This document shows, one piece after another, positions 3-10,300 of a stretch of 64,000 bases of DNA. The notes under the pieces are model-generated. The model was not told where the DNA came from and ran no database searches. It was given only the letters and a program-made list of their open reading frames with translations. The first letter of the stretch is position 1; the number at the start of each line of letters is the position of its first letter. The position numbers were made by a program, and so were the translations under genes. Origin of the DNA: Cognatishimia sp. SS12 (GTDB taxonomy: Bacteria > Pseudomonadota > Alphaproteobacteria > Rhodobacterales > Rhodobacteraceae); the NCBI RefSeq assembly GCF_028369055.1, contig NZ_JAQNCZ010000002.1:248001-312000 (forward strand). Reading direction: 5' to 3'.

Positions 3-539
3 GCGCTGCATGCCAAGTTTGGCTGTTTTGATATCCTGATCAACAATGCTGGAAACACGATCAAGAAACCTTTTTTGGACTCAACGATCGACGAATTTGA
101 TCAGGTGTTTGATGTCCATGTACGTGGCGCGATTGAACTCAGTCGGGCGATCATCGCAAAAATGCGCGCTGAGCAGCGCGAGGGATCGGTGCAATTCATC
201 TCTTCAATGACCGCCTATATCGGCCAGCCAGATGTATCGGGCTATACGGTGTCAAAAACCGCGATCAACGGGGTGATCCGGGCGTTGTCGGCTGAGGTTG
301 CTCAACACCGTATCCGCGTGAACGGTGTGGCCCCGGGCTGGATTGACACCGATGTTTTTCGGACCGCGACCAGAGGTGATCCTGAACGCAAAGCCAAGAT
401 CATGGGTCGCATCCCGATGGGCGAGCTTGGGCAGCCAGAAGATATCGGCTGGGCCTGCGCCTATCTGGCCTCGCGCGCCGCGCGTTATGTGACGGGCCAG
501 GTCTTGTTGGTGGATGGCGGCGGCGCGACGGGGTTTTAG
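3..539 (+). CDS. SDR family oxidoreductase, N-terminus cut by window edge
   Basis: The reading frame is open from base 3, so this is the C-terminal ~178 residues of a classical short-chain dehydrogenase. Visible family marks are NNAG, the catalytic Ser region (ISSMTAY), the catalytic pair in YTVSKTA and the C-terminal VDGGGATGF. The TGxxxGxG cofactor loop lies outside the window. It is the first visible gene of a sugar-acid operon, 40 nt before the GntR regulator. In an oxidative L-fucose pathway its likely job is the NAD-dependent oxidation of 2-keto-3-deoxy-L-fuconate. The SDR class is certain. The substrate is inferred from context only. Confidence 0.9.
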   Translation, partial: ALHAKFGCFDILINNAGNTIKKPFLDSTIDEFDQVFDVHVRGAIELSRAIIAKMRAEQREGSVQFISSMTAYIGQPDVSGYTVSKTAINGVIRALSAEVAQHRIRVNGVAPGWIDTDVFRTATRGDPERKAKIMGRIPMGELGQPEDIGWACAYLASRAARYVTGQVLLVDGGGATGF

Positions 540-579
540 ATGTTAGTCTTAATGGCACGCATGTTCACGAAGGACCCCC

Positions 580-1479
580 ATGTCGCGAGATAACTCCATC
601 TACAAAGATGCACTTAACCGCAGCCTTGGCTATGTGGCGTCGCTCGGCTTGGGCGGCACTTTGCCTTCAGAGCTGGAATTGACCCAGCGGCTTGGCATCA
701 GCCGCACCACCGTGCGCGCGGTGCTTGCGCATTTGCATGACATCGGCGTGATTGACTGGTCAGGCCGCAGCAAGCGTGTGCTGCGTGCCCCGCGCGACGC
801 AGATTATTTCGCCAAGGAAGAGACGCTGTCCACCAGCGCGCGCGTAGAGACGCAGTTTATGGAATATATCCTGGGCGGGGATCTGAAGCCGGGCGCCATT
901 TTGCACGAAAGCGAGTTGGTGCGCGCGTTCGGGGCCAGCACATCGGTACTACGGGAATTTTTGATCAAGTTCTCGCGCTTTGGATTGATCGACAAGGAAC
1001 CCAACCGCCACTGGGTTTTGCGCGGCTTTACCAAAGACTTTGCGATGGAATTGTTCGATGTCCGCGACATGTTTGAAAAGCGCGCTTTTGATAGGCTGCT
1101 GACCAAAGGCAAGGACAGTCCGGCCTATCAGTCATTGCTAAAGCTCGAAGGCGCGCATAGAGAAATCGCGCGCAATATCGAGGCGGAATATCTGCGGTTC
1201 CCGCGCCTTGATGAGAAATTTCACCGCATTCTGATCCAAGACATGAACAACCGGTTTATCGATGATTTCTTCGAGCTGGTTTCGGTGATCTTCCACTACC
1301 ACTACCGCTGGAACAAACAAGACGAACAAGACCGCAATCTTGCTGCCTGCCAGCAACACCTATCGGTGATTGAGGCCCTGAGAAACGGCGATGACGCCGC
1401 AGCACGCGCGCAGTTTCATGGGCATCTGAATGCAGCGCGCGAAACTTTGCTGGCCTCGGTGACATGGGACTCAGCGTGA
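580..1479 (+). CDS. GntR-family regulator with two N-terminal winged helices and an FCD domain
   Basis: A 299-aa DNA-binding regulator. Residues ~1-70 form a GntR winged helix (LPSELELTQRLGISRTTVR). Residues ~85-150 look like a second one (GDLKPGAILHESELV, then LREFLIKFSRFGLI). Residues ~155-290 resemble the all-helical FCD effector domain with metal-ligand-type Asp/His positions (LFDVRDMFEK, DEKFHRIL, QHLSVIEAL). Usual FadR-type proteins are 220-250 aa with one helix-turn-helix, so this one is long. It lies inside the sugar-acid operon, 12 nt before the dehydratase small part, and probably senses a pathway intermediate such as a sugar acid. Confidence 0.85.
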   Translation: MSRDNSIYKDALNRSLGYVASLGLGGTLPSELELTQRLGISRTTVRAVLAHLHDIGVIDWSGRSKRVLRAPRDADYFAKEETLSTSARVETQFMEYILGGDLKPGAILHESELVRAFGASTSVLREFLIKFSRFGLIDKEPNRHWVLRGFTKDFAMELFDVRDMFEKRAFDRLLTKGKDSPAYQSLLKLEGAHREIARNIEAEYLRFPRLDEKFHRILIQDMNNRFIDDFFELVSVIFHYHYRWNKQDEQDRNLAACQQHLSVIEALRNGDDAAARAQFHGHLNAARETLLASVTWDSA

Positions 1480-1491
1480 GGGAAACAAGCC

Positions 1492-1779
1492 ATGCAACAT
1501 GATCCCCGCCTTCTCGTCTTATCCGGTCAGGATAATGTTGCTGTTCTGACCGCCACGGTGCACGCCGGCGAATGCATTCAGGTCGCAGGGCGCGCGATTG
1601 AAATTGCCAGCACATTGGGCCTTGGTCACAAACTGGCCCTGCGCGCCATTCGGGCCGGGGATGACATTGTCAAATACGGCTTTCCCATTGGCTTTGCCGC
1701 CGAGGATATCGCGCTGGGCGGGCATGTGCATGTCCACAATCTGAGCAGCCGCTACACCACGGTTGAGATCACGGAGTAG
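1492..1779 (+). CDS. UxaA-type dehydratase small part (SAF domain)
   Basis: A 95-aa protein matching the N-terminal SAF domain of altronate/galactarate-type dehydratases (UxaA family), with features such as LGHKLALRAI, GDDIVKYGFPIG and HVHNLSS. In this family the small part works with the large catalytic part, here encoded 3 nt downstream. In E. coli UxaA both are fused. Within this operon the pair is the only visible sugar-acid dehydratase, so it probably dehydrates L-fuconate or a stereochemically related 6-deoxy aldonate. The start is an ATG 12 nt after the regulator stop. The substrate is inferred. Confidence 0.85.
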   Translation: MQHDPRLLVLSGQDNVAVLTATVHAGECIQVAGRAIEIASTLGLGHKLALRAIRAGDDIVKYGFPIGFAAEDIALGGHVHVHNLSSRYTTVEITE

Positions 1780-1782
1780 AGC

Positions 1783-2979
1783 ATGAGCGATATGATGGCC
1801 TGGCCGCGCAAGGATGGCCGCAAGGGGATACGCAATGTGGTGCTCGTCGCCTATCTGGTGGAATGCGCCCATCATGTGTGCAAACAGATCGCGCGGCCAT
1901 TTGCCGAAACGGATGTGCAGGTTATCGGGTTTTCCGGCTGTTTTCCGTCTGACTATGGCCAACAGATGATGGAAGCGCTGTGCACCCATCCCAATGTCGG
2001 TGCGGTGCAATTGGTGTCGCTTGGCTGTGAGAATTTTAAGAAACAGCAGCTTGCCGATGCCATTCGCGCCTCCGGGCGGGCGGTCAATCTGGTGACGATA
2101 CAGGACACGGGCGGCACCGCCGCTGCCGTAGAACAGGGTCGCGCCTGGGTGCACGATCAGCTTGCGGATTTGGCCGCCATGCCCAAAGTGCCCATGTCCG
2201 TTTCAGAACTGGTGATCGGCACCATTTGCGGCGGTTCTGATGCCACATCGGGCATCACTGGTAATCCGGCGGCGGGCGTTGCATTCGATATGCTGATCGC
2301 CGACGGCGCGACCTGCATTTTCGAAGAAACCGGCGAGCTGATCGGATGTGAGCATATCATGGCCGAACGCGCCGCCAGCGCTGCGCTGCGCCCTGAGATC
2401 ATCAAGACCGTCAACAAGGCTGCAACCTACTATGCCAAAATGGGATATGGGTCGTTTTCCAACGGCAATGCCACGGGCGGTTTGTCCACCATCGAAGAAA
2501 AATCCTTGGGGGCCTATGCGAAATCGGGCCAGAGCCAGATCAAGGGCATTCTCCGGCCCGCCCAAGTGCCGCAGACCGGCGGGCTGTACCTACTGGATGT
2601 TGTGCCCGATGGGCCGCCCAAATACGGATATCCCAATATCAATGACAACGCTGAAATCATTGAGCTGATCTCCTGCGGTGCCCACGCGGTGATTTTTGTG
2701 ACCGGGCGTGGATCGGTCGTCGGATCGGCGATATCGCCCGTCCTGAAGGTCTGCGCGAACCCGGAAACCTACGCCCGCATGGCCGCCGATATGGATGTGA
2801 ATGCAGGCCGGATCATGCAGGGCGCAGACACGTTGACCGGGGTCGGTACCGAAATTCGCGACAAGCTTTTGGCGCTGGGCAACGGGGCGCAAACGGCGTC
2901 CGAAGCTCTGGGCCATGTGGAGTTTGTCTTGACCTATAAAACCGCAAGTCCGGCGCAGCCCGGATGCCACCCAGGTTGA
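1783..2979 (+). CDS. UxaA-type dehydratase large part
   Basis: A 398-aa protein matching the C-terminal catalytic part of altronate dehydratase-family enzymes. It carries SLGCENF, GTICGGSDATSGITGNPAAG and GELIGCEHI, whose cysteines fit the metal/Fe-S dependent active site of the family. It lies 3 nt after the small SAF subunit and 9 nt before the aldo/keto reductase, clearly one operon. The predicted reaction is loss of water from an aldonate to a 2-keto-3-deoxy acid. Characterised L-fuconate dehydratases belong to the enolase superfamily and none is seen here, so this pair may replace that enzyme. Confidence 0.87.
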   Translation: MSDMMAWPRKDGRKGIRNVVLVAYLVECAHHVCKQIARPFAETDVQVIGFSGCFPSDYGQQMMEALCTHPNVGAVQLVSLGCENFKKQQLADAIRASGRAVNLVTIQDTGGTAAAVEQGRAWVHDQLADLAAMPKVPMSVSELVIGTICGGSDATSGITGNPAAGVAFDMLIADGATCIFEETGELIGCEHIMAERAASAALRPEIIKTVNKAATYYAKMGYGSFSNGNATGGLSTIEEKSLGAYAKSGQSQIKGILRPAQVPQTGGLYLLDVVPDGPPKYGYPNINDNAEIIELISCGAHAVIFVTGRGSVVGSAISPVLKVCANPETYARMAADMDVNAGRIMQGADTLTGVGTEIRDKLLALGNGAQTASEALGHVEFVLTYKTASPAQPGCHPG

Positions 2980-2988
2980 GGGCACCTT

Positions 2989-3954
2989 ATGCTGAATGAC
3001 ACCCACCGAATTGCGCTGGGCACCGCGGCGCTTGCAGGGCTTTATCGCCCGGTCACGCGCGCCGCGGCCTGGGAGGTGTTGGAAACCGCTTGGGAAAGAG
3101 GCATTCGCTATTTCGACACAGCGCCCCACTATGGAAATGGGGCGGCAGAAAGCTTGGTCGGAGAATTTTTGCGCAGCCGAAATGACTGGGTGCTATCCAC
3201 CAAAGTCGGACGCCTGCTGCGCCCGGATCCGTCCCCGCCCGCGGTGATAAACGGCTTTCACAATGCCTGGCCGTTCCAGCAGCATTTTGACTATTCCTAT
3301 GACGGTATTATGCGCTCTGTTGAGGACAGTTTGCAGCGCCTTGGTCTCAACCGGATCGACATTCTTTTTATCCACGACATTGGCGACGCCCAGGCAGGGA
3401 CCGACACGCCTGAACATCGTGCGCAACTGCTGCAAAGTGGCGTGCGGGCGTTGGACGAGTTGCGCGCTGGCGGCACGGTGCGCGCGGTTGGCCTAGGCGT
3501 CAACACCGTGGAAATCTGCGAAGAGATGATTGGCCAGATGCCGATGGATCTGATCTTGCTTGCGGGGCGATACACCTTGCTGGATCAAGCCGCGCAGCAC
3601 CGTCTTTTTGCGCGGCTCATCGCCGAAGATATCCGGCTCGTCATTGGCGGCGTGTTCAATTCGGGCATTCTGGCCACCGGCCCCAAAGAGGGCGCGCATT
3701 TCAATTACGCCCCGGCTTCCGCCGAGATTCTTGCGCGTACACGGCAGATTGAAGCGATCTGCACCACGCACAATGTGCCCCTGGCGGCAGCGGCTATTCA
3801 ATTTCCCGGCCGCCATCCGGTGGTGGCTTCGACCCTGATCGGCACCGGCAAGGTGACGTCCTTGCTGCGGAACCTTGATCAGGTCGATATGCCACTACCA
3901 GCGGCACTTTGGCAGGACTTGCAGGCATCCGGCTTGATCGAGACAGGCGCATGA
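2989..3954 (+). CDS. Aldo/keto reductase, likely L-fucose (aldose) 1-dehydrogenase
   Basis: A 321-aa aldo/keto reductase. The catalytic tetrad is visible as Asp43, Tyr48 (FDTAPHYG), Lys72 (STKVG) and His129 (ILFIHDIGD). The sequence type is that of D-threo-aldose/L-fucose 1-dehydrogenases, which oxidise the C1 hydroxyl to a lactone. The next gene overlaps its stop by 4 bases and encodes a COG3618-type lactonase, which fits a dehydrogenase-lactonase relay. It is cytoplasmic, with no signal peptide. Substrate assignment depends on operon context and could also be another 6-deoxyhexose. Confidence 0.87.
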   Translation: MLNDTHRIALGTAALAGLYRPVTRAAAWEVLETAWERGIRYFDTAPHYGNGAAESLVGEFLRSRNDWVLSTKVGRLLRPDPSPPAVINGFHNAWPFQQHFDYSYDGIMRSVEDSLQRLGLNRIDILFIHDIGDAQAGTDTPEHRAQLLQSGVRALDELRAGGTVRAVGLGVNTVEICEEMIGQMPMDLILLAGRYTLLDQAAQHRLFARLIAEDIRLVIGGVFNSGILATGPKEGAHFNYAPASAEILARTRQIEAICTTHNVPLAAAAIQFPGRHPVVASTLIGTGKVTSLLRNLDQVDMPLPAALWQDLQASGLIETGA

Positions 3955-4844
3955 GGATTGACGCCCATCAGCATTTCTGGACGCTCGCGCGCGGCGATTA
4001 TCCTTGGCCCAATGCAAGTGTTGCGCCGATTTTTCGCGACTTTGGCCCAAAAGATCTCGCGCCGCTGATCTCTGTCGCGGGGATCGACGAGACCGTGCTC
4101 GTGCAAGCAACAGACACGGTGGCCGAGACTGAGTTTTTGCTGAAAATCGCAACCCAGACACCCTGGGTGGCCGGTGTGGTCGGGTGGGTGGATTTGCAGG
4201 CCGATGGGGCCATCGAAATGATCGACTATTTGCGCGCAAACCCATATCTGAAGGGGCTACGGCCCATGCTGCAAAATATTTCTGAAACGGATTGGATTCT
4301 GAATGCCGCGGCGCAGCCTGCGCTGGCGCATATGGCCGCGCAGAACCTCTGCTTTGATGCGTTGGTACAGCCCCGCCACTTGCCTGTGATCCTAGAGCTC
4401 TCGCAGCGCCATCCCAATCTGAAGATCGTCATCGACCATATCGCCAAACCCACTATGGGCGGCGGCACCATGCCGGCGCGGGACTGGAGCAGGGGCATGT
4501 CGCAATTGGCCGCCCAGCCCAATGTTTACTGCAAGCTGTCAGGCCTGCTGACCGAGGTCGGGCCAAACTGGCGCTCTGACGATGTCGCGCCGTTTGCCGC
4601 CCATGTGCTCAACGCATTCGGCGCATCAAAAGTGATGTTTGGCAGTGATTGGCCGGTGCTTTCACTGGCCGCGACCTACAGTGAATGGTGCGCGCTGGTC
4701 GAAGGATATCTGGCTGGCTTCTCGCCGCATGAGAGGTCGGCCATCATGGGCGAGACCGCCATGCATTTTTATGGGTTGGGTGATGACGCGGAAGGAAAGA
4801 AGAATGACACAACGCATGGGAATGGTGATCGGGATCCATCCTGA
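3951..4844 (+). CDS. Amidohydrolase-2 family lactonase (L-fuconolactonase-like)
   Basis: A 297-aa TIM-barrel amidohydrolase. It starts at the ATG overlapping the aldo/keto reductase stop (ATGA) and opens with the metal motif RIDAHQHFW (His6, His8). IDHIAKP lies mid-protein and MFGSDWPV near the end, as in COG3618 L-fuconolactonase/L-rhamnono-lactonase enzymes. Predicted role is hydrolysis of the sugar lactone to the open aldonate for the UxaA-type dehydratase. Its 3' end overlaps the mutarotase gene by 41 bases. An upstream in-frame start exists but lies inside the previous gene and before the conserved N-terminus. Confidence 0.88.
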   Translation: MRIDAHQHFWTLARGDYPWPNASVAPIFRDFGPKDLAPLISVAGIDETVLVQATDTVAETEFLLKIATQTPWVAGVVGWVDLQADGAIEMIDYLRANPYLKGLRPMLQNISETDWILNAAAQPALAHMAAQNLCFDALVQPRHLPVILELSQRHPNLKIVIDHIAKPTMGGGTMPARDWSRGMSQLAAQPNVYCKLSGLLTEVGPNWRSDDVAPFAAHVLNAFGASKVMFGSDWPVLSLAATYSEWCALVEGYLAGFSPHERSAIMGETAMHFYGLGDDAEGKKNDTTHGNGDRDPS

Positions 4845-5136
4845 CAAAATTGGTGCGTATAAGAAGCTCCACGCTGATGTTTGGCCTGATGTGCTAAAGC
4901 GCCTCAAGCAATCGGGTATTTCAAACTATTCGATTTTTCTGCGGGAGCCCGAAAATCTGATGTTTGGATATTGGGAATATGATGGCGCGGATTTTGAGGC
5001 TGACATGGCGGCCATCGCAGCAGACGAAGTGACGCGGCAATGGTGGGCGCTTTGCGGACCGATGCAAGCCCCGCTGCCGACCCGCAACAGTGATGAGTGG
5101 TGGGCAGACATGCAGCAAGTTTTCTACATGGCGTGA
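4804..5136 (+). CDS. L-rhamnose/L-fucose mutarotase (RhaM family)
   Basis: A 110-aa protein of the RhaM-type sugar mutarotase family, which interconverts alpha and beta anomers. Visible marks are the catalytic-type histidine in KKLHADVWPDVL (His23), the Tyr in NYSIFL (Tyr42) and the C-terminal tryptophan-rich DEWWADMQQVFYM. The ATG at 4804 was chosen because conserved residues begin there. The longer frame upstream is read-through of the overlapping lactonase gene. As the last gene of the operon it would supply the correct anomer to the aldose dehydrogenase. Confidence 0.88.
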   Translation: MTQRMGMVIGIHPDKIGAYKKLHADVWPDVLKRLKQSGISNYSIFLREPENLMFGYWEYDGADFEADMAAIAADEVTRQWWALCGPMQAPLPTRNSDEWWADMQQVFYMA

Positions 5137-5159: not shown

Positions 5160-6101
5160 TCAGGCTGAATATTCTCCGCATAGCGGCCGCGTAAGACGCG
5201 CCCTTTCACTGACCGGAAGGGCCAAAACATGATGCAGCTTTGCATAGGCGGCCTCAACCGTCATATCGCGCCCGTCGATCACGCCGTGGGCGCGCAGGAT
5301 TGCCCCGGCCGCATATGTTCCGAGCGCCATGCCGCCCTCGGCGCATTGGCTTACCGCCAGCACGGGAATGTCGCGGCGATTGGCGATCTGCAATGCCATT
5401 GCCAACCCCTGGCTCTCCGGTGCGGTGCCCGATCCGTAGACCCGCAGCAACAGCGCATCGCAATCGCGCGCCGCATGTTGAAACAGATCGGTCGGCATAC
5501 CCGGTGCCATGGCCAAAATGGCGACTTTGGCGCTGCCAAAGCCATGTACGCGCAACGTCTCACCCGGTTGGCAAGGCGGGGCTGTGCCGGGCGTGTCGCG
5601 GAAGGCATCAAATTCGGTTGAGTGTGATTTGCGGGTGCGCACACCATGCAGCCGCTGCCCCGCAAACTGAACCCAGATGCCCGCGGGGGCTGACGGCGCC
5701 GCCGCAATGGCATCTGCAAGATTGCGCATCCCGTCTGACCCCTTCACGGACAGAGGCAGCATGGCGCCGGTCACGATCACCGGCTTATCAAGACCCTGAA
5801 GGGCGAACCCCAATGCCGCGGCACTATACGCCAGCGTATCGGTGCCATGAGTCACGACAAAGCCCGAATACTGCGCGTGATGATCCGCGATGAGTGCAGC
5901 AATACGGCCCCATTCCGCAGGTGTGGCATTGGCGCTGTCAATCAGCGGTGTCAGCAAATGCACATCGACATCGCGCGGGCAGGCCCCACTGTGTTTGAGG
6001 TCGCTTATGGCCTGCTCAACAACACCAGTCTGCGGTGAAAACCCGCTAGGCGTCTGCACCATCCCAATGGTGCCGCCGGTGTGAATCAAAAGAATGCTCA
6101 T
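5160..6101 (-). CDS. Cytoplasmic-type L-asparaginase
   Basis: A 313-aa type I/II asparaginase hydrolysing L-asparagine to aspartate and ammonia. The first active-site motif TGGTIG is at residues 8-13 and the second is THGTDTLAYSA. MLPLSVKGSDG and the C-terminal small domain are present. There is no signal peptide, pointing to a cytoplasmic enzyme. The ATG at 6101 places TGGTIG at its usual distance from the N-terminus, and the longer open frame to 6167 lacks similarity. The gene is convergent with the fucose operon and reads away from the island that follows. Confidence 0.9.
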   Translation of the reverse strand: MSILLIHTGGTIGMVQTPSGFSPQTGVVEQAISDLKHSGACPRDVDVHLLTPLIDSANATPAEWGRIAALIADHHAQYSGFVVTHGTDTLAYSAAALGFALQGLDKPVIVTGAMLPLSVKGSDGMRNLADAIAAAPSAPAGIWVQFAGQRLHGVRTRKSHSTEFDAFRDTPGTAPPCQPGETLRVHGFGSAKVAILAMAPGMPTDLFQHAARDCDALLLRVYGSGTAPESQGLAMALQIANRRDIPVLAVSQCAEGGMALGTYAAGAILRAHGVIDGRDMTVEAAYAKLHHVLALPVSERARLTRPLCGEYSA

Positions 6102-6194: not shown

Positions 6195-6216
6195 GGAAAA
6201 TGGTGCCCAGAAGAGG
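6195..6216. repeat. Distal copy of the tRNA-Leu 3'-end direct repeat (att remnant)
   Basis: A 22-base stretch (core TGGTGCCCAGAAGAGG) identical to 10208-10229, the 3' end of tRNA-Leu(CAG) plus six flanking bases, in the same orientation. The rest of the tRNA is absent here, as expected for the far att site of an element inserted into a tRNA gene. Confidence 0.85.
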
Positions 6217-6340
6217 GCTGAAGATTGTAAAAATTTTTTATTATCAACGTGCTGCATAGCATGCGTTGCTGAAACGTGAAACGCTTGTTAAGCGAAGATG
6301 CCAAAACATGTGTTTCATAGCTGCCCGACCAGCCCCAGCC

Positions 6341-8077
6341 TCACTCACGCAATTTTGCGCAGTCCAAAATCACCGTGTCCCTCTCAAGAAAAAGTGGCTT
6401 GCGAGGTGCAAATTCCGCGGCAACGTCGCAACGATCGTTTAGGTCGCGATAAAATGCGCGCAGCATCAGAGACGAATTTTCAGTCATGGCGTGCGCCAGA
6501 TTTGCGACAACAAAGACATCCACCCCATCGGCGAGCCATCGGTCGAGGGTCCAATCGTTTATTTGTGGCGGCCAAGCATAAGCGCGAACAATGCCAATTA
6601 GATCTTCGTCTGTCGTGTCCTCCAATCCGGACATCGGATTGGGAAGTGGTAAAATAAATTGTTTGTTTGGACTGTCCGCAGGCACGATGCGCTCTTGCGA
6701 TAGAGGCGGCAATTCAACTTGATATTTCTCTGCTGTCTTTTGAAGTCGCGCGAATTCATACTCTTGCGCGGTTTTGGACTGAGGCACCGTGGGTAGTGGT
6801 ATCCCGGTCGCAATCTTGCGATCAGCAAACCGTGCTTCAATCACACTTGCAATCTCAGATGTTATCGGAGCCGCTAAGGTCTGTTGCCAAATCCCAAAGC
6901 AACCCACAAGTGCAACTATATATGTCGCCACGCCGATGGCCCTGCCAGCACTTTGGAACTTGCGTGCCAATTCCACCAGAGTGACGGCTGCAAACATTGC
7001 GACGATGACAAAAAAGGACACCCAAAGGTGTTCGGGCTGACGCAGTTTTACCAGATAGGCAACAAAAACCATTCCGACGATTGTTGCCGCCCAGATTGAT
7101 AGCAACATGCGGCGATATTCATTTCTAGGTGCCGCATAAGGGAGCAAAACGAAAAGGATAGGCAAGATAATCCCAAGGCCACTTTGAAGATGAAGCATCC
7201 TTTCAACAAGCAGAACGAGGGCCTGAAACAGCGTGGGGCCCTGGCTAATTGACATAACCGATTGGATTTTTTGAAAATTAAGAAAATTCTGAAAGTCGAG
7301 CACAATACCAATGTTCAATATAGGCCAGGCAATTGCCCCAACGAGGAAAATGCGGCCAACTGATTTGAATGTACCTTTCAAACCGAGAAGTGGAAAAACT
7401 GAATATAGATAGGCAAGAGCGAGTGGCCCCATAAGCAAGGCAAACGAATGCTTGAAGCTCAGTGCGAGCGCCATAGACACTGCCAAAAGGACATCGGTTC
7501 GCACTGAATTCACATCTGCAATTTTCCGAACCATCAAGCAGACGGTCAAAAGTGAAAACGTCGCTAAAGCCGGGTCGCCCTTGTACATAAACGACAAATA
7601 GACGGTAATCGGTGCCAACACTATAAGCGTTGATATCACTAGGGCTTCACGCGCGGAGTAGCGCAGTTGGCGCGCAAATACATAGGCAATCGGGGCTGAA
7701 AGCGCACTCAAAGCGGCCACCAAACAACGGCCCGCGACAGAGAACACCGTTGGATCTTGGAAGTATTGTTCCCGAAACGCAGTTGCGTCGGCCCACACGC
7801 CAAATACCTTTCCAATTGCAAACATCGCCCCGTACACAATCGCAGTTATGTAATTCAGCAATGGCGGATAAAAATGTTGGTCTGGGACAAGCTGCCCCGT
7901 CAGAACTTTGGCCGCTTCATTGATACGCTCATCAGCAATCACAGCCCCATGATCGACGCCAATAAGTCGGATAAGAAATGCAAATAGAAAGAGCGCAATC
8001 AGACGTCCCCAACCGGCATATCGAACTTTAAACTGTTTCATAAAGCTGTGTACCTTTCGTACCACAATACGGTTCAA
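6341..8077 (-). CDS. GT39/ArnT-like membrane glycosyltransferase
   Basis: A 578-aa polytopic protein with about 10-12 hydrophobic segments and a charged C-terminal third. The first extracytoplasmic loop has the acidic pair of GT-C enzymes (IADERINEAA) followed by FYPPLLNYI, as in dolichyl/undecaprenyl-phosphate sugar transferases of the GT39/PMT group. Such enzymes transfer a sugar from a polyprenyl-phosphate donor on the outer face of the membrane. It is divergent from the HAD-UbiA gene in the island. A start at 8041 (MKQFKVRYAG) is also possible. The acceptor is unknown. Confidence 0.75.
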   Translation of the reverse strand: MNRIVVRKVHSFMKQFKVRYAGWGRLIALFLFAFLIRLIGVDHGAVIADERINEAAKVLTGQLVPDQHFYPPLLNYITAIVYGAMFAIGKVFGVWADATAFREQYFQDPTVFSVAGRCLVAALSALSAPIAYVFARQLRYSAREALVISTLIVLAPITVYLSFMYKGDPALATFSLLTVCLMVRKIADVNSVRTDVLLAVSMALALSFKHSFALLMGPLALAYLYSVFPLLGLKGTFKSVGRIFLVGAIAWPILNIGIVLDFQNFLNFQKIQSVMSISQGPTLFQALVLLVERMLHLQSGLGIILPILFVLLPYAAPRNEYRRMLLSIWAATIVGMVFVAYLVKLRQPEHLWVSFFVIVAMFAAVTLVELARKFQSAGRAIGVATYIVALVGCFGIWQQTLAAPITSEIASVIEARFADRKIATGIPLPTVPQSKTAQEYEFARLQKTAEKYQVELPPLSQERIVPADSPNKQFILPLPNPMSGLEDTTDEDLIGIVRAYAWPPQINDWTLDRWLADGVDVFVVANLAHAMTENSSLMLRAFYRDLNDRCDVAAEFAPRKPLFLERDTVILDCAKLRE

Positions 8078-8163
8078 TCAAAATTCAACCTTATTTGGGT
8101 CAATATTTAGCAATCAAATGCCAGTAATCTGCGACCAAATTACGAAATTGATGTGAGCGATTA

Positions 8164-9615
8164 ATGCAACGCGACCAATCTAAAATCAATATTCCACTTT
8201 ATGTGGATCTGGACGGAACATTGGTGAAAACGGATGTTGCGCAAGAACTTCTTTGCCAGGTTGCTGCCAAGCCGATGCATTGGATCGGTTTGTTACAGTC
8301 CTCGAAACTCGGTCGTTCTGGAGTCAAAGCGTTTGTGTCTGAAAGAGCGGAGTTTGACCCCGCGAACCTCCCATATCGCGACGACGTTCTTGATTACATT
8401 CGTAATGAAAAAAGCAGAGGCCGCAAAGTTTTTCTCGCAACTGCGACGGATGCGCGGATCGCGAAAAAGATTTTTGATTATATCGGCGTTTTTGACGGCG
8501 TCATCGCCTCGGACGAAGGCAATAACCTCAAAGGTCAGGCGAAGTTGGAAGCGATCCAAAGCGCCAGCCCGGCGTTTGAGTACGTGGGAGATTCAAAAGC
8601 GGATATTCCCATCTGGAACGCGGCGCGTATCTCCGGGTTTGTAAATGCTCCTAACTCAGCGATGACTTCACTTTCGCAGACCCATGCACCTTCATTAAAT
8701 GTGCATGACGCGGTGCCTTTTGCCAAGGGCCTTTTTCGGGCCATGCGCCCACACCAATGGGCAAAGAACGCTTTGATATTATTGCCCTTATTTTTCTCGC
8801 ATCAGTACGGTCAACCGGATTTGGTTGCCCGGGCGATGTTGGCAACTTTCATGTTCTGCCTCTGCGCATCTGCGGTTTACATCGTAAATGACTTGCTAGA
8901 CATCGAGGCCGACCGAAACCATAACACCAAGAAGCATCGCCCTTTCGCCTCAGGTGAGCTGCGCCCAGCTGCGGGCGTGGGGTTTGCCCTTGTTTTGCTT
9001 TTGACGTCATTGATCATCAGCAGCCTGGCTTTTGGTTTCGCGCTTACTTTTTTGCTACTTTTGTATCTGTTTTCAACAAGTCTCTATTCGGGCTGGCTGA
9101 AACATAAGCCGATTTTCGACGTCATTGTTCTGACCTGCCTTTACACCTTGAGGGTCTTTATTGGTGGTGTTGCTATCGGCGCGGCACTCTCACCTTGGCT
9201 ACTGAATTTTTCATTGTTCTTTTTCGCGAGTTTGGCATTCATGAAACGCTTCATCGAAATGCGCAAAGTGAAAGCGGAAGGAAAAGTCATGGCCCGAGGT
9301 TATCTTGTGTCTGACCTTGAGGCGATTTTGCCCATGGGGATTGCCACCGGAGCTTTGTCTGTACTGACCCTTACGCTCTACCTAAATAGTAGATTTGTCG
9401 CTGAAACCTACGGCGCAGTTCAAATACTCTGGCTCATTGCGCCACTGACGATGTTTTGGATTTTCAGAACATGGCTAAAAGCACTGCGAGACGAAATTGA
9501 CGATGACCCGGTTGTGTTTGCGCTGCGTGACACCGTCAGCCGCATCACACTTGTCGCAACAATCTGCGTAGTGCTCACGTCGCGATTTTCGACTTTAGAG
9601 GGGCTATTGCTATGA
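8164..9615 (+). CDS. HAD phosphatase-UbiA fusion, polyprenyl-phosphate phosphoribosyltransferase type
   Basis: A 483-aa fusion. Residues ~10-185 form a HAD phosphatase (VDLDGTL, Asp15/Asp17; GDSKADIP, Asp143/Asp147). Residues ~190-480 form a UbiA-superfamily membrane domain with MRPHQWAKN and NDxxDxxxD at 242-250 followed by KKHRPFASG. These UbiA motifs match decaprenyl-phosphate 5-phosphoribosyltransferase (Rv3806c type) rather than quinone prenyltransferases. The HAD half could remove the 5-phosphate, as the separate Rv3807c-type phosphatase is thought to. The predicted product is a polyprenyl-phospho-ribose lipid. It overlaps the SMR gene by 4 bases. Confidence 0.82.
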   Translation: MQRDQSKINIPLYVDLDGTLVKTDVAQELLCQVAAKPMHWIGLLQSSKLGRSGVKAFVSERAEFDPANLPYRDDVLDYIRNEKSRGRKVFLATATDARIAKKIFDYIGVFDGVIASDEGNNLKGQAKLEAIQSASPAFEYVGDSKADIPIWNAARISGFVNAPNSAMTSLSQTHAPSLNVHDAVPFAKGLFRAMRPHQWAKNALILLPLFFSHQYGQPDLVARAMLATFMFCLCASAVYIVNDLLDIEADRNHNTKKHRPFASGELRPAAGVGFALVLLLTSLIISSLAFGFALTFLLLLYLFSTSLYSGWLKHKPIFDVIVLTCLYTLRVFIGGVAIGAALSPWLLNFSLFFFASLAFMKRFIEMRKVKAEGKVMARGYLVSDLEAILPMGIATGALSVLTLTLYLNSRFVAETYGAVQILWLIAPLTMFWIFRTWLKALRDEIDDDPVVFALRDTVSRITLVATICVVLTSRFSTLEGLLL

Positions 9616-9977
9616 GCCTAAGTGCCTTTTTACTGGTGTTTGTTTCAGTCAGCTTATCTGCTGTCGGCCAGGTTGCATTCAAACTCGGGGTGTCTGATCA
9701 GGAGCCCACAGATAGTGATGGGGTGATCAACACATTGCTTGCCTTTGCTGCATCCCCCTTCATTTGGGGCGGGATCGTAGCATATGGACTTGGGACTATT
9801 TTCTGGCTCTTTGCCCTGCAAAGGCTGGACCTGTCCCTCGCCTACCCCTTTGTCGCGATAAGTTTCATAGTGGTTTTCGCAGTTGGAATTTTCGGTCTAG
9901 GCGAGCCCTGGAACAGCACGCGCGCTTTGGGATTGATCATTATTTCGATCGGACTTGTCGTGATGGCGCGAGCCTAG
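9612..9977 (+). CDS. Small EamA/SMR-type membrane transporter (ArnE-like)
   Basis: A 121-aa protein with four transmembrane segments in the small multidrug resistance/ArnE fold. Conserved features are VGQVAFKLGV in the first helix region and LDLSLAYPFVAISFIVV in the third. Proteins of this size beside polyprenyl-phosphate sugar genes act as flippases (as ArnE/ArnF for undecaprenyl-phospho-aminoarabinose). It overlaps the HAD-UbiA gene (ATGAGC), implying translational coupling. It would move the lipid-linked pentose to the outer face for the GT39-type enzyme. Flippase function is inferred. Confidence 0.8.
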   Translation: MSLSAFLLVFVSVSLSAVGQVAFKLGVSDQEPTDSDGVINTLLAFAASPFIWGGIVAYGLGTIFWLFALQRLDLSLAYPFVAISFIVVFAVGIFGLGEPWNSTRALGLIIISIGLVVMARA

Positions 9978-10207
9978 CCCCGCGTTACCGCAAAAGCTGA
10001 ACTCAGAAGGATTTTCTGAACTCGTGGCGAGTCTTCAGCAATTACTCGAAAATAAGTTCAACGGATTCATGAACTTTGTTGCGAGGTCGAACAGCTATAG
10101 CTCGCTTGTCGTATCCAAGGCTTGATCGACACGGCTATCCTCATCGCAACTTCATCCGGAGTGAAGCGATATTCCGGCTAACCGACTGTTTTCTCTTTGT
10201 TTTCAAG

Positions 10208-10229
10208 GGAAAATGGTGCCCAGAAGAGG
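10208..10229. repeat. Proximal copy of the direct repeat, in tRNA-Leu 3' end
   Basis: A 22-base copy identical to 6195-6216. It covers the CCA end and acceptor/T-arm 3' bases of tRNA-Leu plus six bases beyond it. This is the tRNA-side att site of the island. Confidence 0.85.
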
Positions 10230-10300
10230 ACTCGAACCTCCACGTCCATACGGACACTAGCACCTGAAGCTAGCGCGTCTACCAATTCCGCCATCTGGGC
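10214..10300 (-). tRNA. tRNA-Leu(CAG)
   Basis: An 87-nt class II tRNA with encoded CCA. Read on the minus strand it begins GCCCAGATGGCGGAATTGG. The anticodon stem-loop CTAGC-TTCAGGT-GCTAG puts CAG at the anticodon. A long variable arm, the T loop GTTCGAGTC and the acceptor GCCCAGA/TCTGGGC follow. It is intact and serves as the island insertion site. Confidence 0.95.

Follow-up and report, generated by a model that had tools for sequence, protein, structure and literature searches.

Which pathway do three genes encode that lie between two copies of a tRNA-derived repeat in the roseobacter Cognatishimia sp. SS12, which sugar would it deliver, and to what? The genes, for a glycosyltransferase of the GT-C type, a fusion of HAD and UbiA domains and a small protein of the SMR type, are found in a stretch of 64,000 nucleotides (assembly GCF_028369055.1, contig NZ_JAQNCZ010000002.1, positions 248,001-312,000 of the forward strand), here called the window, to which all coordinates refer. 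Comparison of sequences and predicted structures makes it probable, in our judgement, that the three genes constitute a self-contained, three-component ribofuranosylation cassette and that, next to the 3' end of tRNA-Leu(cag), a 4.0-kb insertion carries this cassette and nothing else.

The three-gene module and its borders

The locus is made up as follows.

6195-6216: left direct repeat of 22 bp that contains part of the tRNA-Leu 3' end; exact match to 10208-10229
6341-8041, minus strand: PMT/ArnT-like GT-C glycosyltransferase, 566 aa, proposed pentofuranosyltransferase (PF02366, AlphaFold model, invariant residues)
8042-8163: divergent intergenic region, 122 bp, presumed promoters (spacing 119-228 bp in 18 triads)
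8164-9615, plus strand: HAD-UbiA fusion gene (Pfam HAD and UbiA; NCBIfam PRK08238)
8164-8712, plus strand: HAD phosphatase domain, residues 1-183, proposed 5-phosphoribose phosphatase (PF12710, HAD/SerB-type fold, invariant D15/D17)
8719-9594, plus strand: UbiA domain, residues 186-477, proposed polyprenyl-phosphate phosphoribosyltransferase (sequence and fold match to 8j8j)
9612-9977, plus strand: EmrE/ArnF-like SMR protein, 121 aa, proposed polyprenyl-phosphoribose flippase (library matches; 4-bp overlap with the HAD-UbiA stop)
10208-10229: right direct repeat, overlapping the tRNA-Leu 3' end; exact 22-bp match to the left copy
10214-10300, minus strand: intact tRNA-Leu(cag), 3' end towards the cassette (beside the same epimerase-family gene in 8/8 congeners)

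A preliminary description of this DNA had placed three open reading frames here, for a GT-C enzyme, a HAD-UbiA fusion and an SMR-type protein whose gene overlaps the fusion, and each was found where it had been placed. For the GT-C gene, alignment with relatives favours the ATG at 8041 over the listed TTG at 8077.

The 22-bp repeat includes the 3' end of tRNA-Leu(cag), and its two exact copies are 4,013 bp apart; no other 22-mer of the tRNA region recurs in the window. The G+C content is 0.488 between the repeats and 0.584 outside, the minimum of 104 other overlapping 4-kb segments being 0.559, and the three genes are all that the insert carries. An asparaginase gene, with its likely ATG at 6101, begins 100 bp from the left repeat. 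In each of eight congeners tRNA-Leu(cag) adjoins the same epimerase-family gene, which we take to be NDUFA9-like, and none of the eight has cassette genes at this site within the stretches compared, that of congener G316 reaching about 1.5 kb past the tRNA before the contig ends. The asparaginase gene is present on the far side in three of the seven stretches searched (G310, G312 and G315), with an intervening gene in G312 and G315; in G310 the tRNA end and the start of this gene are 100 bp apart, the same distance as between the left repeat and the gene here. With a repeat at both borders and a site free of the insert in relatives, the locus is, on these sequence features, a tRNA-site island.

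To follow the arrangement beyond this genome, we compared 80 HAD-UbiA loci, the best 80 of 105 relatives. The same divergent GT-C gene and overlapping SMR gene accompany the fusion in 13 of the 14 nearest (L002-L015); the remaining one, L006 from the Pseudomonadales, has the SMR gene and no such GT-C gene. The other 66 loci gave no GT-C match, as judged from script-called open reading frames only, a less sensitive procedure that missed two of the glycosyltransferases among the nearest loci. Since the same divergent arrangement recurs in 13 of the 14 closest loci with the 4-bp overlap kept, the triad is not a chance assembly. Eighteen triads (the window, the 13 loci, L116, L118, L120 and L123) were examined together. 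The 4-bp overlap was computed in 17 of them and is also present in L118 when its SMR start is corrected, and the divergent genes are 119-228 bp apart throughout. The three proteins have diverged in concert, their pairwise identities giving Mantel r values of 0.94, 0.81 and 0.85 (0/2000 permutations each), and the genes flanking the triads, followed for roughly 4.5 kb either way, form 10 groups with no gene in common by the criterion applied. Two further stretches from the same genus, L117 and L119, are letter-identical to the named records L002 and L003 in 47/47 and 39/39 compared 400-base blocks, on which the assignment of the genus to Cognatishimia is based.

Among 295 Rhodobacteraceae genomes, strong matches to the GT-C protein occur in five, with a weak match in a sixth (G137). 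The SMR profile scores at least 150 bits in the same five genomes and no more than 77 elsewhere, and four of the five have the three genes placed as a triad. This type of UbiA, defined by a best E <= 1e-39 as the cut-off chosen in this analysis, is present in 115 of the genomes, the best match covering the UbiA half only in eight of these. The triad, intact in the 18 compared loci, is rare; UbiA proteins of this type are common in the family.

Predicted activities of the three proteins

The fusion protein matches the NCBIfam model PRK08238 with 523 bits against a cut-off of 351, and the phosphoribosyltransferase model PRK12324 with 156 bits, under its cut-off of 234. Its HAD half matches PF12710 (a match to PF00702 is below that family's cut-off) and has a HAD/SerB-type fold in the structure comparison; the fusion of a UbiA domain to a HAD phosphatase is as first described. 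By sequence, residues 187-469 match the solved decaprenyl-phosphate phosphoribosyltransferase 8j8j with an E value of 9e-27. This mycobacterial structure is also the top fold match of the AlphaFold model (mean predicted local distance difference test score (pLDDT) 90.4, from a 19-row alignment), with Z 28.1 and a root-mean-square deviation of 3.1 over 285 residues at 27% identity; the best of the other UbiA enzymes is 8 Z units lower, at 20.0. The NDxxDxxxD motif of loop II, the Arg and Glu of loop IV and the HAD nucleophile aspartate are all present, and 19 aligned relatives show no variation at N242, D243, D246, D250, R362 and E365 or at the two HAD aspartates, D15 and D17. Their spacing equals that of N247/D248/D251/D255 and R366/E369 in ORF15 of Citrobacter, D15 corresponding to D18; according to the main text of that report, mutations in loop II and of D18 altered activity, and R366A and E369A retained it (PMC11127046). 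By sequence, predicted fold and active-site residues, including those mutated in Citrobacter, the UbiA half is a polyprenyl-phosphate phosphoribosyltransferase, in keeping with the likeness to Rv3806c noted at the outset.

The overlapping gene encodes an SMR/EamA-like protein. Its best NCBIfam match is to ArnF (53 bits, cut-off 99), and the ArnE model gives 26.3 bits (cut-off 92); with both scores under the curated cut-offs, the protein is a relative of this group and is not assigned as ArnF. A search of the Protein Data Bank by sequence with the SMR profile returned only EmrE, with an E value of 0.34.

The GT-C reading frame (6341-8077 as listed, minus strand) matches the Pfam PMT family PF02366 with 37.9 bits against a cut-off of 22.7, and the same family is found in 12 of 14 members of its protein family. 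The AlphaFold model (14 rows, mean pLDDT 86.1) has Z scores of 24.7-27.2 to ALG12, oligosaccharyltransferase (OST), Pmt4 and ArnT, with little or nothing to choose between them (ALG12 27.2, Pmt4 26.6, ArnT 24.7-25.6); for the arabinosyltransferases AftA and AftD it is about 20. These structure matches do not separate the PMT, OST, ALG12 and ArnT types, and a profile search of the Protein Data Bank by sequence gave nothing relevant. Seven residues, D37-E38-R39, H56, K154, D156 and R334, are invariant in 14 sequences; catalytic roles for the Asp-Glu pair and the others are presumed from the literature on PMT and ArnT. By sequence and model the protein is a PMT/ArnT-type enzyme, with a GT-C fold bearing a periplasmic Asp-Glu loop. 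A second GT-C gene, 42% identical to that of the window, lies about 2 kb from the triad of G312 (L116:13265-14926), near tRNA-Leu(gag).

Taken together, the three proteins would form a short pathway. The UbiA domain, judged by homology and its conserved catalytic residues, would transfer 5-phosphoribose from phosphoribosyl pyrophosphate (PRPP) to polyprenyl phosphate; the fused HAD domain would remove the 5-phosphate to leave polyprenyl-phospho-ribofuranose; the SMR protein, probably as a homodimer, may carry this lipid to the periplasmic face, which is the weakest step; and the PMT/ArnT-like enzyme would pass the pentose to an acceptor outside the cytoplasm, for which an exopolysaccharide is the likeliest candidate to judge from the position of the triad in congeners. 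Without DprE1 and DprE2 the sugar would most likely stay D-ribofuranose.

A three-component pentofuranose system of this kind has been described in Citrobacter youngae O1/O2, with a GT-C enzyme (ORF12), a flippase (ORF14) and a HAD-UbiA protein (ORF15); in the main text of that report, ORF15 makes farnesyl-phospho-ribose from PRPP, ORF12 transfers the sugar and ORF14 is a predicted flippase, while epimerases diversify the sugar (an ORF13-type C3-epimerase gives xylofuranose, and O2 has an SDR epimerase) and relatives occur widely, including one encoded by a phage (PMC11127046). The window encodes together a predicted phosphoribosyltransferase (PPPRS), a small flippase candidate and a GT-C enzyme, and on sequence is such a three-component system. 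It shares with the published account of Citrobacter the same three activities (here by homology), the same N-terminal HAD and C-terminal UbiA fusion with its catalytic residues, the same class of small EmrE/ArnE-like flippase, and the ribose form without DprE1 (PMC11127046). It differs in being a stand-alone, divergent unit of three genes. The glycosyltransferases may also differ, as far as ORF12's description goes: ORF12 (family GT136) was reported to have no similarity to the glycosyltransferase families then known (PMC11127046), whereas the cassette enzyme matches PF02366. Compared without alignment, the cassette enzyme has the conserved motif D37 E38 R39 x N41 and ORF12 has D31/E34/Y35; the C-terminal part of the cassette model is mixed helix and strand, and that of ORF12 is a carbohydrate-binding module.

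The likeness to other systems is more distant. The mycobacterial pathway (Rv3806c, Rv3807c, DprE1/E2, Emb/Aft) has a homologous first enzyme and GT-C enzymes that use a lipid-linked pentose; here, by contrast, a fused HAD domain takes the place of Rv3807c, no DprE1 or DprE2 was found, there is one GT-C enzyme and the transporter is of the EmrE/ArnF kind. With ArnT, ArnE and ArnF the cassette shares the logic of flipping and transfer, an SMR protein nearest to the ArnF and ArnE models (below cut-offs) and a GT-C model resembling ArnT, but its donor would come from UbiA and HAD domains and not from the Arn cytosolic pathway, and it has a single SMR gene. Rhodobacteraceae also have HAD-UbiA/DprE1 loci, such as L115 (HAD-UbiA, GtrA, DprE1-like, DprE2-like), in which the HAD-UbiA protein is homologous (35% identity), whereas the epimerase pair leads one to expect arabinose and a GtrA-family protein is encoded; no GT-C of the cassette family was found within the 15-kb stretch around that locus.

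The preliminary description held that such a cassette was not well described in roseobacters. Among the matches listed in a search of largely open-access literature we found no description of one in Rhodobacteraceae or roseobacters, nor a study naming a pentofuranose side chain on a surface glycan there, and the main text of PMC11127046 contains no word starting with Roseo or Rhodobacter; the kind of pathway itself, however, is already known from Citrobacter (PMC11127046). What appears to be new is the form it takes in roseobacters, which has a PMT-type GT-C enzyme, is compact, seems to relocate and in this genome is tRNA-bounded. If this is correct, the lipid-linked ribose pathway would extend to a major marine group, as a three-gene unit whose sugar product would be predictable from whether DprE1/DprE2 are encoded, and the genus would offer natural plus/minus pairs for the effects of ribosylation on surface recognition.

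Acceptor and sugar

In five of the eight congeners (G311, G312 and G314-G316) the triad adjoins an exopolysaccharide cluster, and the Shimia locus (L004) has the same neighbours. The cluster encodes a tyrosine-autokinase-like protein, an epimerase-oxidoreductase fusion, GT2 and GT4 glycosyltransferases, a second oxidoreductase and WecG; these families were assigned on the copy in the SS12 genome itself (L131), where the kinase match is below cut-offs and Wzz and a bacterial sugar transferase are additionally encoded. This position of the triad in congeners suggests exopolysaccharide as the acceptor, and for SS12 the analogy points to the product of the Wzz/WecG/GT2/GT4 cluster. The strongest competitor, which we regard as unlikely though deserving of attention, is a protein or lipid A acceptor, with the GT-C enzyme working like PMT or ArnT. 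Its membership of the PMT family is in favour of this, Pmt4 (Z 26.6) and ArnT (Z 25.6) are about 1 Z apart, and in the other genera examined the cassette stands away from polysaccharide genes. The fold alone does not tell the acceptor; against a protein or lipid A stand the exopolysaccharide cluster that adjoins the cassette in the congeners and Shimia and the closest characterised system which, as reported, modifies a polysaccharide (PMC11127046).

The nature of the pentose turns on DprE1 and DprE2. A DprE1 profile built from nine DprE1-like proteins of other loci finds the solved DprE1 with an E value of 9e-119; its matches to unrelated FAD oxidases, at 1e-11 to 1e-14, are confined to the N-terminal part. 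In the SS12 genome, which has no DprE1 at E 1e-60, and the genomes of 13 other triads, it gave nothing (one genome) or N-terminal matches only (14-213 of 451), with E no better than 1.3e-13; in two positive-control genomes it matched at full length, at 9.5e-222 and 5.0e-198. DprE2 scores in the same 14 genomes do not exceed 82.7 bits, against 181 bits in two positive controls, which themselves fall below the cut-off of the NCBIfam DprE2 model. Two proteins of relatives, in L031 and L115, are termed DprE1-like because the NCBIfam DprE1 model gives them 325 and 389 bits, under its cut-off of 500. The absence of the two epimerase genes, first noted for the window, extends, at the level of the controls, to these 14 genomes, which makes plain D-ribofuranose the likeliest sugar. 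Ribofuranose was also the original suggestion, and it stands as the likeliest choice, short of proof. A separate search for the ALO domain (PF04030), absent from the SS12 genome and found in a Corynebacterium glutamicum control, was discarded, the DprE1-like proteins of L031 and L115 matching only PF01565.

DprE1 (E <= 1e-60) is present in 104 of the 295 Rhodobacteraceae genomes. The 115 genomes with this UbiA divide into 97 with DprE1 and 18 without, the latter including every one of the four complete-triad genomes: 0/4 triad genomes against 97/111 others (Fisher p 0.0004, related genomes not corrected for). G258 is counted among both the 111 and the 97; as a triad genome it would change the figures to 1/5 and 96/110. 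This genome has a GT-C and an SMR gene about 300-365 bp apart, beside tRNA-Ser and with no HAD-UbiA between them (L114:7600-9995), and elsewhere a HAD-UbiA/GtrA/DprE1-like/DprE2-like operon (L115:4085-7987); here, perhaps, nature has the donor made at one locus for use at another.

The alternative that the cassette adds D-arabinofuranose or another epimer, its lipid-linked ribose being epimerised by enzymes encoded elsewhere, seems to us improbable, somewhat more so than a protein or lipid A acceptor. It can point to the DprE1-like gene at 25 of the 80 HAD-UbiA loci, to the DprE1 of the 97 non-triad genomes and to the pair and separate operon of G258. Against it, the triad contains no epimerase gene and neither DprE1 nor DprE2 reaches control level in the triad genomes.

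Several points weigh against a ribofuranosylation cassette acting on exopolysaccharide. The pathway steps are predicted from homology and context, and the likeness of the SMR protein to ArnF and EmrE stays below cut-offs. The SS12 assembly is 91.3% complete, and 14 of the 111 non-triad UbiA genomes also lack DprE1, so that this absence is not peculiar to the triad. An ORF13-like C3-epimerase giving xylofuranose could sit among the many SDR genes, and the pair in G258, with no adjacent HAD-UbiA and a DprE1 operon elsewhere, implies that such a glycosyltransferase may take other pentoses. In the SS12 genome the cassette is away from the exopolysaccharide cluster, and the acceptor is proposed here by analogy; in other genera (L005, L007-L015) the neighbours look unrelated by eye. 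Finally, the far side of the tRNA site varies among the congeners.

Possible mobility of the cassette

No integrase gene lies between the repeats, and the three genes fill positions 6217-10207 too closely for one to fit. In G316 a phage-type integrase gene (L136:12778-13632) is found beside the same tRNA-Leu(cag), near the contig end. Direct repeats of at least 18 bases bracketing the cassette were absent from all nine other regions searched (L114 and L116-L123), the repeats in L117, L119 and L121 not bracketing it. At the exopolysaccharide locus no remnant of the triad was detected in the SS12 copy (L131), G310 or G313; in G317 there is an orphan, diverged glycosyltransferase gene (L134:6248-7804, 518 aa), with a PMT match just under the cut-off, by eye no D-E pair, and no adjacent HAD-UbiA or SMR genes.

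The tRNA-bounded insert and the changing neighbours are consistent with a mobile cassette. More speculatively, the triad may be a minimal, integrase-free cassette for surface-glycan conversion. Roseobacters would exchange it whole, with island or phage integrases acting in trans at tRNA-Leu, or recombination at exopolysaccharide loci, as the means, and it would switch the envelope between ribosylated and plain, perhaps hiding a phage receptor; we put this forward tentatively, likening it to the gtr cassettes for glucose in enterobacteria. It is doubtful that the cassette is instead an inactive, decayed remnant of a larger island: the lack of an integrase between the repeats when one stands beside the same tRNA in G316, and the orphan gene in G317, would fit decay, but all three reading frames are open and keep their invariant residues. 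Least credible of all is that the UbiA half is an ordinary quinone, heme or lipid prenyltransferase in a coincidental triad, which is refuted as far as sequence and fold reach, since the models for heme o synthase and 4-hydroxybenzoate polyprenyltransferase match it weakly and far under their cut-offs, against 523 bits for PRK08238, the best fold is that of the phosphoribosyltransferase by 8 Z units, profile and structure comparison gave no grouping with quinone or heme prenyltransferases, and the protein is fused to a HAD domain in a recurrent, co-diverging triad.

A phage origin of the cassette was considered and rejected: pattern matches in viral contigs, 44 to the GT-C alignment and two to HAD-UbiA, yielded no confirmed relative, and the one match in a phage collection, to an unannotated record of 6.6 kb, was partial and confined to UbiA. 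A HAD-UbiA relative is present in 102 plasmid records, all under 60% identity. Plasmid pVa1 of Vibrio alfacsensis (L137:5980-9237) has a HAD-UbiA gene and an overlapping EamA-family gene within a glycan cluster, followed by hypothetical genes, the first of which has no Pfam or NCBIfam match.

A promoter scan listed no sigma-70-like site inside the 122-bp intergenic region 8042-8163; promoter and terminator counts were 4 and 9, against 3.8 (standard deviation 1.9) and 5.2 (2.4) in shuffled sequences. Ahead of the asparaginase gene, positions 75-5136 of the window hold a run of genes resembling sugar-acid catabolism, including a galactarate/altronate dehydratase type (1783-2979) and an amidohydrolase (3909-4844), with an SDR, a GntR regulator, an aldo-keto reductase and a mutarotase-like gene identified by eye.

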